Below the pieces are notes generated by a model, which was given only the letters and a program-made list of their open reading frames with translations, ran no database searches and was not told where the DNA came from. From Candidatus Zipacnadum vermilionense (GTDB lineage Bacteria > Armatimonadota > Zipacnadia > Zipacnadales > Zipacnadaceae): a DNA stretch of 53,504 bases. The stretch covers positions 1 through 53,504 of the forward strand of contig JALGSV010000023.1 in assembly GCA_029821755.1 (NCBI GenBank), written 5' to 3'. The first letter of the stretch is position 1. The number at the start of each line of letters is the position of its first letter. Positions 50,516 through 53,504 of the stretch are shown here, in pieces. Position numbers and translations under genes: made by a program.

Positions 50516-51985
50516 CTACTCTCCGTCTTCTTCCTCCTGCGTAACCCCCACCCGCACATCCCTAAACCGCGCCGGGGGCACTCCATGGCCCACCCGCGCC
50601 GTCTGCATCGGCTCGCCCTTCCCGCAGTTGGGCACGCCCCATAGCTGCCATTCGTCGGCGCTGCACACCGCGTCGCACGAGCCCCAGAAATCCGGCGTGT
50701 TGCCGGTGTAGGTGGCGTTGCGCAACATTTCCCCCAGGTCGCCGTCCTCGATCCGGTAGGCCACCTCGGTGCCGAACTGGAAATTCAGGCGCTTGTCGTC
50801 GATGCTCCAGGAGGTGTTGGTGCACAGGTACATGCCGCGCTTGGTCTCGGAGATCAGCTCGTCCAGCGTCCAGTCGCTCGGCTCCAGGTTGATGTTGGTC
50901 ATGCGGATCAGGGGGATGCGGTTGTAGCCGTCGGCGCGCATCGCCCCGCTGCTGCTGGTCTGCCCGATCGCCGGCGCGGTCTCTCGGGAGGACAGATAAC
51001 CGGTGAACATGCCCTCCCGCACGATCTGGGTGCGCTGGCCGGGAACGCCCTCGTCGTCGTAGGCAAACGACCCCAGGCCACCGGGGAGGGTGGCGTCGGC
51101 GTTGATGTTGACCTGCTCTGACCCATAGCGGAAGCTGCCCAGCTTGTCGGGGGTGAGAAAGCTGGTGCCGGCAAAGCTGGCCTCGGTGCCCAGCACACGG
51201 TCCAGTTCGATGGGATGGCCGCACGACTCGTGCAGTTGTAGCGCCAGTTGGCTGCTTTCGAGGATCACGTCGGTTACCGTAGCCGGGCAGGCGGGAGCGG
51301 TGAGCAGTGCCTCGGCTTCGCAGGCGATCTGCTCGGCGTGGCTGGGCATGTCCAGCTCCCGCACCAACTCCCAGCCGCGCTGAGCGGTTTGCCCACCGTG
51401 GGAGGAGGGGTAGGACCGCGTCTGGGTCTCCGAGCCGTCCGGCGCCACCGCCGTGCACTCGATTCCCGCGCCGGTCTCCACCCCTTCCTGGTAGATCTGC
51501 GCGCCCTCGCTGCTCTCGAAGTATTTCTTCTCGTGGGTAACCTCCAGGAACCCCTCCCGCAGCGCGACGTTAGCGGCCTCGGCCATCAACTTGTCGCAGT
51601 CCAGCAGCAGTTCCACCCGCTCCGCCAGCGGCACGTCGAAGGGATTCTCGGTGAAGACGGCGGGGAAGCGCCCCGAGGCGGGCTCGACGGGGGTCAGCGC
51701 CACTGGCGTCTTCTGGGTAGAGGCGCTGGCCCGGGCGATGCGCACCGCCAGGCCAGCGGCCTCCTCGACTGCCGCGAGGGTCAGGGTGGAGGTCGCAGCA
51801 AAGCCCCACGCCCCCTCCGCCAGCACCCGCACGCCCACGCCCTGGGCGGAGGAGGACCGCAGGCTCTCCACCGCGCCGTTCTTGACGCGGACCTCCTCGT
51901 CCTCGTGGCTGGTGAAACGCGCGTCGGCGTAGGAGGCCCCCGCCTCCAGCGCCGCCGCCACGGCTCGTGCAATCAGTTCTTCCAT
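50516..51985 (-). CDS. tldD: TldD metalloprotease subunit
   Basis: 489 residues. The zinc motif HESCGH (H252, E253, H257) is in LQLHESCGHPIELDRVLG, and the downstream Cys ligand in WGVPNCGKGEPMQTARVGHG. TldD/E removes N-terminal stretches from unfolded peptides. ATG 51985 with GGGAGG. The transposase element begins only 15 nt upstream of this start, so the native promoter region has been replaced or interrupted. Confidence 0.95.
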   Translation of the reverse strand: MEELIARAVAAALEAGASYADARFTSHEDEEVRVKNGAVESLRSSSAQGVGVRVLAEGAWGFAATSTLTLAAVEEAAGLAVRIARASASTQKTPVALTPVEPASGRFPAVFTENPFDVPLAERVELLLDCDKLMAEAANVALREGFLEVTHEKKYFESSEGAQIYQEGVETGAGIECTAVAPDGSETQTRSYPSSHGGQTAQRGWELVRELDMPSHAEQIACEAEALLTAPACPATVTDVILESSQLALQLHESCGHPIELDRVLGTEASFAGTSFLTPDKLGSFRYGSEQVNINADATLPGGLGSFAYDDEGVPGQRTQIVREGMFTGYLSSRETAPAIGQTSSSGAMRADGYNRIPLIRMTNINLEPSDWTLDELISETKRGMYLCTNTSWSIDDKRLNFQFGTEVAYRIEDGDLGEMLRNATYTGNTPDFWGSCDAVCSADEWQLWGVPNCGKGEPMQTARVGHGVPPARFRDVRVGVTQEEEDGE

Positions 51986-52000
51986 GATACCCTCCCTGGA

Positions 52001-52060
52001 GGGGCCGCATGGGTGGCTCGCGCACGTTGTTTGTGCGCGAGACGGGTCCCATCCGGCCCC
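52001..52060 (+). repeat. Left terminal palindrome of the RAYT element
   Basis: Outer stem GGGGCCG-C-ATGGG (52001-52013) with CCCAT-C-CGGCCCC (52048-52060). Foot GTGG at 52013-52016. Inner stem CTCGCGCAC (52017-52025) with GTGCGCGAG (52033-52041), loop GTTGTTT. Inverted partner at 52573-52630. Confidence 0.9.
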
Positions 52061-52073
52061 CGGCTGTCAAGGA

Positions 52074-52559
52074 CTACTCTCCCGGTATCGGATGCCACTG
52101 CGACCAGCAATAGGGCCAGTCCGGCCATCTCTCGCATAACTGGTGACGGACCGGGTTACAGAGCGTGTAGAGAGCGTACCCTTCCACGTCAGTATAGTCC
52201 TTCGCGCTCGCGTCCCAATAGCTCCGTTGCCACTTGCCACCTCGCAGGAGCTTCGCGCTCTCCCGTTTGGCGTAGCGAATCCATTTCTGGAAATCACCGC
52301 CGACGTCCGTGAGCGAGACAACGAGGTGAACGTGATCGGGCATAACGCAGTAGCAGTTGACCTCGATCTTCCAGCGACGCCCAATATCGCACAGCACCTT
52401 GACCATACGGGGCGCGATCTCCGGAGTTGCGAGGTCGGCTCCGCTCTGGGCGCGAAAAGAGACGAAATAGACCTGGTCTCGGATCCGATACTCCTCCGGC
52501 GTAAGCCGGTGGGGGTGCTTGCGGTTGGGTTCCTGGTGCTCGGGCGGATTCCCGGTCAT
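52074..52559 (-). CDS. REP-associated tyrosine transposase (RAYT, Y1_Tnp)
   Basis: 161 residues. HUH single-strand endonuclease of the IS200/IS605-like Y1 family: HUH motif MPDHVHLVV (H76, H78) and the RAYT-type region KWQRSYWD followed by YALYTLCNPVRHQL, where Y128 or Y131 is the likely nucleophile. E. coli TnpA-REP recognises REP hairpins with a GTAG foot. ATG 52559; longer frames upstream enter the right palindrome. The gene looks intact. It lies between tldD and a methyltransferase gene, on the same strand as both. Confidence 0.92.
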   Translation of the reverse strand: MTGNPPEHQEPNRKHPHRLTPEEYRIRDQVYFVSFRAQSGADLATPEIAPRMVKVLCDIGRRWKIEVNCYCVMPDHVHLVVSLTDVGGDFQKWIRYAKRESAKLLRGGKWQRSYWDASAKDYTDVEGYALYTLCNPVRHQLCERWPDWPYCWSQWHPIPGE

Positions 52560-52572
52560 GTTCGTGGCAGCC

Positions 52573-52630
52573 GGGGCCGGATGGGGCCTGTCTGCCCGCA
52601 AACGACGCGGGCAGCCACCCATGCGGCCCC
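52573..52630 (-). repeat. Right terminal palindrome of the RAYT element
   Basis: Inner stem CTGCCCGC (52592-52599) with GCGGGCAG (52607-52614), loop AAACGAC; foot CCAC at 52615-52618 (GTGG on the minus strand); outer stem GGGGCCGGATGGG (52573-52585) with CCCATGCGGCCCC (52618-52630). Inverted copy of 52001-52060. Confidence 0.9.
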
Positions 52631-52666
52631 TCCGGTTGCGGTTCGTCCCCGTCTCGCCCGGCCCTC

Positions 52667-52722
52667 TCCCCCCTCTCCTGCCCAGGGCGTCCGCGCCCAG
52701 AGAGGGGGCAGGGGGTGAGACT
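52667..52722 (-). repeat. C/G-rich element related to the post-stop GCCTCA class
   Basis: CCCTCTCC and CCTGCCC against GAGAGGGGGCAGGGGGTGAG, with a nested GGGCGTCCGCGCCC hairpin in the middle. Read on the minus strand it follows the methyltransferase stop, the same position as the other members. Confidence 0.6.
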
Positions 52723-52729
52723 CCTCTCC

Positions 52730-53504
52730 CTACCCTAAAACCCCGCTCATCTCCTCCTGCAGCCCACCGGGTGGCGCCAGCAGCAGTCCCTGGAAGCGGT
52801 CCAGGACTCGCCCGCAGCGTGGGCACTGGTAGACCTCGCCCGCTTCCAGGAGTACTTCTCCCTCGTCCGCTTGGTGGCAGTCCGGGCAGATCAGCCGCGC
52901 CCAGGGGTCCGGAGCGGGCCCTGCCGGGAGCGTTCCGGCCTTGACCGCGCGGCATTCCACCCGGCCGCCGACCAGCCGGCTTATCGCTTGCGCCAGGCTC
53001 CCGCGCCCGAGGCTCTCTGGCCCGTAGCGCCGCTTGCCTATCGCCGGCGACTGCGCCCACAGCGTGAACTCGTCAAACGACGCGGCCACGGCGCCCAGCC
53101 ACCGCTGCATGGAGAACTCGCCCTCGTTGACCCCGTACGCCGCCTCCCGCTTGCCCCCCCCGGCCAGCAGGTGCAGCAGCCCGGCCTTGCGCAGCAGCTT
53201 CTGCGTAGGGGTCAGCTTGTGTCCGTGACGGAACAACACAATTCGCGGCCGCTGCAGCGGCTCCTCACCAAACCACAGTACCCCGCCCGGCCGCAGCACC
53301 CGCTGCATCTCCGCTAGGACCGGCGCCGGGTCGGGGAAGTGATGCAGCGTCTGGTAGGTAAAGACCAGCGAGAAGGTCTCCGCGGCGAAGGGCAGCGTAT
53401 AGGCGTCGCAGCAAATCCGCTCGGCGGGAGCCGCGAATCCCAGCGGCTCAGCCAAGCGCTCCGCTGCCAGCAGGCTGTGCGGGGAGATGTCTATCGCCAC
53501 CCCC
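52730..53504 (-). CDS. Class I SAM methyltransferase with C-terminal zinc ribbon (partial)
   Basis: At least 257 codons; the N-terminus, with the glycine-rich SAM loop, lies beyond the window. Visible: AIDISPHSLLAAERL (motif I end), CCDAYTLPFAAETFSLVFTYQTLHHFPDP (motif II/post) and EMQRVLRPGGVLWFGEEP. A linker is followed by CPDC and CPRC, a zinc ribbon near the C-terminus. The substrate is unknown; the ribbon suggests a protein- or RNA-binding role. The GTG at 53500 is internal, not the start. Confidence 0.85.
   Translation of the reverse strand, partial: GVAIDISPHSLLAAERLAEPLGFAAPAERICCDAYTLPFAAETFSLVFTYQTLHHFPDPAPVLAEMQRVLRPGGVLWFGEEPLQRPRIVLFRHGHKLTPTQKLLRKAGLLHLLAGGGKREAAYGVNEGEFSMQRWLGAVAASFDEFTLWAQSPAIGKRRYGPESLGRGSLAQAISRLVGGRVECRAVKAGTLPAGPAPDPWARLICPDCHQADEGEVLLEAGEVYQCPRCGRVLDRFQGLLLAPPGGLQEEMSGVLG

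Follow-up and report, generated by a model that had tools for sequence, protein, structure and literature searches.

A RAYT gene between inverted GGAG-footed hairpins: a probable REPtron in Candidatus Zipacnadum vermilionense

In gammaproteobacteria, a gene for a REP-associated tyrosine transposase (RAYT) lying between two inverted REPs, with compensatory pairing in the hairpins and cognate REPs scattered over the genome, was described in 2010 (PMC2817692). Published accounts portray RAYTs as vertically transmitted genes that occur in a single copy (PMC8049555) and state that a REPtron does not move as a unit (PMC6006769). Most REP feet are described as GTAG, but subclass 2.6 and class 3 contain exceptions (PMC6006769), so that GT[AG]G is typical of REPtrons without being obligatory.

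The locus described here lies in a window of 53,504 nucleotides, the whole stretch of DNA that was analysed, which is contig G000:C75 in its entirety, part of a draft genome of 4.39 Mb whose relatives are Armatimonadota of Candidatus Zipacnadia/WS1. We consider it very probable (about 0.85) that the unit at positions 51998 to 52633 is a REPtron, that is, a RAYT (TnpAREP) gene bracketed by its own REP hairpins with their feet pointing outwards. This reading is based on the matches of the protein to RAYTs, the dispersed intergenic REPs, the inverted doublets and the covariation of the inner stems, as well as on the GGAG foot of all callable clade members, the association between RAYTs and REP number, and three copies that extend into sequence resembling the 5' end of the gene.

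The unit is a new occurrence of the known RAYT-REP system. As in the gammaproteobacterial REPtrons, for example those of E. coli and Stenotrophomonas (PMC2817692, PMC8266576), the RAYT gene lies between inverted REPs, cognate REPs are dispersed, mostly in intergenic DNA, and include doublets, complementary changes preserve pairing, and the protein carries HUH and Y---NP motifs, with 4er8 as its best structural match. In contrast, the foot is GGAG instead of the known GT[AG]G, the hairpin is long (60 nt) and two-tiered with a free inner stem, the copies number tens and not hundreds, and the host belongs to the phylum Armatimonadota. No GGAG foot was found in the main texts of the RAYT-REP literature covered, and the GGAG-footed lineage looks like the new part, a variant of the system.

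Three other families were compared with the unit. TIRYTs and their TIRtrons (PMC3733652) also combine a RAYT-like gene with inverted repeats that have no GTAG tag, some of which are self-complementary and repeated in the genome. They were ruled out, as the ends of the present unit are foot-tagged hairpins with dispersed copies, the foot being common to a whole clade; GGAGGGGCCG does not fit the main-text TIR motif, GGGGWSAS. Class 3 TnpAY1 proteins (foot CnGA; PMC6006769) are likewise RAYT-like and have non-GTAG hairpins, and many REPs of the clade show CGGA before G. However, the base preceding GGAG varies in the window genome, and the class was ruled out by its Y----Q motif, whereas P0001, the protein encoded by the unit, and 28 of the 29 clade members have Y---NP. 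The IS200/IS605 family (IS608, ISDra2) shares the HUH single-tyrosine fold, but the unit has one gene copy and ends that are dispersed REPs. P0001 scores 23.6 bits with the NCBIfam IS200 model, far below the cut-off of 55, which rules out this transposase family.

The unit and its transposase

The unit measures 636 bp. The original prediction had placed it at 52001 to 52630; the notion of a unit with shared ends stood, whereas its limits had to be moved, given that the GGAG/CTCC bounds yield 51998 to 52633. The ends form a perfect 21-bp inverted repeat (51998-52018 and 52613-52633), as expected from the common outer stem that had been predicted, and the hairpin tails are each 14 bp from the RAYT ORF, on one side from its stop codon and on the other from its start codon. 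On the minus strand, the gene order is a methyltransferase-like ORF (52730-53503), the RAYT gene (52074-52559) and a tldD-like gene (50516-51985), the outer two labels coming from inspection of the translations by eye only. The left hairpin is located upstream of the tldD-like gene, whose start codon is 12 bp from the left foot. Just beyond the right end lies a separate C-rich inverted repeat (52662-52715; 16-nt arms, 88% complementary), which is unrelated to the REP family. Positions 53391-53503 share 113 identical bases with G000:C63:49525-49637, both at contig ends, and contigs C75 and C63 are probably chromosomal neighbours.

P0001 is a protein of 161 aa whose proposed identity as a RAYT was borne out at the level of both sequence and structure. 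It matches Pfam PF01797 (Y1_Tnp) and the sequence of the E. coli TnpAREP structure PDB 4er8 (E 8.6e-10), and it only just passes the NCBIfam RAYT equivalog NF047646 (82 bits, cut-off 80), a narrow margin that weighs against the REPtron reading. When the AlphaFold model of P0001 (mean pLDDT 85.6) was submitted to Foldseek, 4er8 was the best match in the PDB (TM 0.68), followed by IS608 and ISDra2. The HUH motif corresponds to H76-V-H78, and Y131, within Y---NP, is the catalytic tyrosine by motif.

A genome search returned a single full-length match, and the gene is therefore present once. Other RAYTs are 30-36% identical to P0001. The same genome contains divergent RAYTs at C71:182746-183165, C63:39084-39506, C22:147-521 and C22:2049-2456 (L060, L061, L062 and L064), together with a broken remnant with two in-frame stops at C1:40299-40577 (L065). 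Several of the divergent RAYTs are accompanied by palindromes of their own, footed with GTAG or GTGG; the repeat of L061, GGTAGCGCAGGCGTCTCGCCTG, occurs 16 times with at most two mismatches, mostly clustered around its RAYT. These GTAG/GTGG-footed RAYTs constitute internal controls for the GGAG lineage.

Hairpins and their dispersed copies

The left REP hairpin occupies positions 51998 to 52059 of the plus strand (79.5 bits with the covariance model), and the right one, in opposite orientation, positions 52574 to 52633 of the minus strand (84 bits). Both follow the same plan: GGAG, a lower stem, a mismatch, ATGGG paired with CCCAT, an unequal internal part (TGG opposite ACGGGT or ACAGGC) and an inner stem. 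In the left hairpin, the foot (51998-52001) is followed by the lower stem GGGCCG/CGGCCC in the region 52002-52007/52054-52059, the mismatch opposite an invariant C (52053), ATGGG/CCCAT, the internal TGG/ACGGGT and the inner stem CTCGCGCAC/GTGCGCGAG (52017-52025/52033-52041), which encloses a loop at 52026-52032. In the right hairpin, the foot runs from 52633 to 52630 on the minus strand, the inner stem CTGCCCGC/GCGGGCAG lies at 52592-52599/52607-52614, and the tail CGGCCC at 52579-52574. Folded as single-stranded DNA, both ends gave z-scores of -3.6 to -5.1, and none of 200 shuffles was as good. The lower stem GGGCCGNAT/ATCCGGCCC (52002-52010, 52051-52059) resembles those of enterobacterial REPs, such as GTAGGCCGGATAA...ATCCGGC (PMC2817692), a likeness that may reflect common recognition, common origin or chance. 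A correspondence between its unpaired C and E. coli K82 is no more than suggestive, as the alignments place K82 opposite either K98 or R99.

With regard to the inner stems, the claim that they differ in sequence and yet pair holds exactly at both ends and extends to the whole family. In an alignment of 20 REP copies from the same genome, the sequence and length of this stem are free, and 5.4 of the first 6 pairs per copy are Watson-Crick, as against a mean of 3.2 and a maximum of 4.55 when the 3' arms were re-dealt (10,000 re-pairings). Double changes (G-C to A-T) are also observed in the outer stem. The mismatch of the lower stem is filled by G in five copies and is thus not strictly required. 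The conserved stretch runs from GGAG through CGGCCC, and the flanks outside it vary, apart from a weak C at position -3 from GGAG.

A search for the end sequence across the genome, which had been recommended as a check, revealed about 25 further loci scoring at least 35 bits with the covariance model in the 4.39 Mb, or about 27 including the two unit ends, opposite-strand matches at one place being counted once. Palindromes of this family had also been claimed elsewhere in the window, but no copy was detected there by the model apart from the two unit ends. Nearly all scored copies (26/28) are intergenic, a raw count obtained with a simple codon-score gene caller and without a random-position baseline. 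Inverted doublets with feet outwards, at C113, C32 and C53, have the layout of the RAYT unit minus its gene. The copies at C17, C16 and C46 run past the hairpin tail into sequence resembling the RAYT 5' end, and the first of these crosses the start codon. As good a likeness was obtained in 0, 2 and 5 of 2000 shuffles, respectively, and only C17 is firm, given that about 25 copies were tested. This constitutes modest evidence that the right end of the unit may have seeded some copies.

Genomes containing a RAYT of the clade hold more REPs (Mann-Whitney p 0.001; 45 other genomes, uncorrected for kinship). A clear exception is G016, from the same order, which has 83 REP-model matches and in which no GGAG-clade RAYT was found; its REPs seem to have survived or lost their RAYT, unless the gene falls into a gap of the assembly. 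This exception weighs against the REPtron reading. The association between RAYTs and REP number and the three copies of the 5' end favour in part the predicted role of the unit as a source element, whereas for movement of the unit itself a clean empty site was sought and not found, and in relatives RAYT units have stayed put, decayed or are missing.

The GGAG foot and its clade

A foot of the GT[AG]G type was sought 5' of the window hairpins and was absent, GGAG being found instead. In an unbiased count of the tetranucleotides directly 5' of the stem in both flanks, GGAG came first in the motif group of P0001 (9 of 18 RAYTs, next best 2), while GTAG led among 111 other RAYTs with 24, GGAG reaching 7 (Fisher p about 2e-5). 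In a tree of 136 RAYTs, P0001 falls within a 29-member clade (SH-aLRT 97). All 20 callable feet of this clade are GGAG (13 two-sided and 7 one-sided, with nine members uncalled) and none is GTAG or GTGG, feet that predominate outside the clade. L030, which is the window RAYT, and L032 were labelled by inspection, because the scan missed long outer stems or took the inner GTGG. The sister units L031-L036 have an identical lower stem after GGAG, and REP-model matches across the class have the same core, though the model itself includes GGAG. GGAG-footed simple hairpins also accompany three acidobacterial RAYTs (L191, L193 and L208) outside the Armatimonadota clade; GGAG may therefore have arisen several times or predate the clade.

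The original prediction had taken GTGG (52013-52016, plus strand) as the foot, in which case the outer stem would be an added layer around the inner hairpin. In most close copies, as at the two ends, this tetranucleotide immediately precedes the inner stem, and GTGG feet are known from REPs (PMC2817692, PMC6006769). It is nevertheless internal, with the outer stem on one side and the inner stem on the other, and is not conserved in the family: copies L012b, L021, L023 and L008b have another sequence in its place, whereas GGAG at the outer foot is kept at 95-100% per position, and in sister units such as L033 and L046-L048 the hairpin begins immediately after GGAG, without GTGG. An internal foot is thus very improbable, and GGAG replaces GTGG as the true foot.

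Mobility and reading of the foot

The unit could also be a small autonomous IS-like transposon, in which the RAYT moves the 636-bp segment and solo palindromes are shortened copies. The symmetry of the ends and their closeness to the ORF would fit such an element, as would the doublets that resemble a unit without its gene, the three copies extending into the RAYT 5' end, and the L033/L036 units, whose surroundings differ and whose homology begins at a REP. However, the gene is single-copy, units hold their position across species or genera (L037/L038, L047/L068 and L044/L070, with surroundings common within each pair), and the published view of REPtrons (PMC6006769) speaks against movement as a unit. 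At the L047 site, the full gene is present in G033 and G037, a RAYT remnant in G040, and none in G018 and G038; the G040 fragment (L280, contig C150), between flanks matching L047, resembles the beginning of a clade RAYT and looks like decay in place. We consider the transposon unlikely, and the RAYT gene is probably not an active transposon but a gene passed on, for the most part, at a fixed site. A still weaker case can be made for terminators or leader structures of the methyltransferase-RAYT-tldD string, with the RAYT there by accident. The genes are indeed co-directional and the left hairpin adjoins the tldD-like start codon, but the RAYT is bracketed by two inverted copies, and the same hairpins adjoin unrelated genes as well as the ends of other RAYTs. 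A search for a terminator or a known RNA gave nothing, the hairpins having no terminator-like T run and matching no Rfam family; this last explanation is the least credible of all.

The RAYT is also absent from the L038 site in G006, G009 and, judging from hit spacing, G013, the intergenic DNA being too diverged for placing the ends. For the window unit, no precise empty site was found among same-genus genomes, and gene order around the tldD-like gene is not conserved; G001 and G002 have unrelated sequence and no RAYT upstream of this gene. A relative carrying the gene in place without such ends, which would have contradicted the original prediction, was not seen, same-genus genomes having no RAYT there.

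Under the REPtron reading, binding, cleavage, strand transfer and the cleavage site would most likely resemble those of TnpAREP, on whose biochemistry this part of the model is founded. The RAYT would bind a single-stranded REP through its 5' foot and its lower stem with the unpaired base, and Y131 would nick beside the hairpin, forming a 5'-phosphotyrosine, and then rejoin the DNA. In the long run, this would copy or move REPs, singly or as inverted pairs, into intergenic DNA, and the inner (upper) stem would drift with compensation, because pairing alone is required.

In E. coli, the residues tied to GTAG reading include W94, Q95, E100, H101 and R104 (PMC6006769, PMC8266576). The clade retains W, Q, D and R at the foot-reading positions, but at position 101 R is found in 76% of its members, as against H in 40 of 53 GTAG/GTGG RAYTs, and position 99 is W in 93% of the clade versus 8% of GTAG/GTGG RAYTs. 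P0001 deviates from the R of the clade at both position 101 (A) and position 104 (K); the link between residue and foot is therefore not strict, and this weighs against the REPtron reading. H101 is sometimes R also in subclasses with GTAG feet (PMC6006769). The pattern is a correlation, and a single clade would represent a single event. According to a proposal from 2021, selection of the CT cleavage site is directed by subsets of GTAG (PMC8266576). As GGAG retains AG, CT cleavage would still be predicted; a fixed CT was looked for beside the REP copies and none was found, which also weighs against the REPtron reading. We tentatively suggest, with somewhat more doubt than confidence, that a RAYT lineage within the Armatimonadota (Ca. 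Zipacnadia/WS1) may have switched its REP guide from GTAG to GGAG, a change accommodated at the foot-reading site (H101 to R, and neighbours).

Within the literature covered, this locus extends the described RAYT-REP systems to the Armatimonadota. These systems use the foot tetranucleotide as a main tag of specificity, and a lineage with a different foot, together with GTAG/GTGG RAYTs in the same genome, provides a natural set for finding the residues that read the foot bases, which could also show whether the foot sets the cleavage site. If the guide switch is true, it would be a natural reprogramming of the guide of a HUH nuclease that preserved AG, the half thought to select the CT site.
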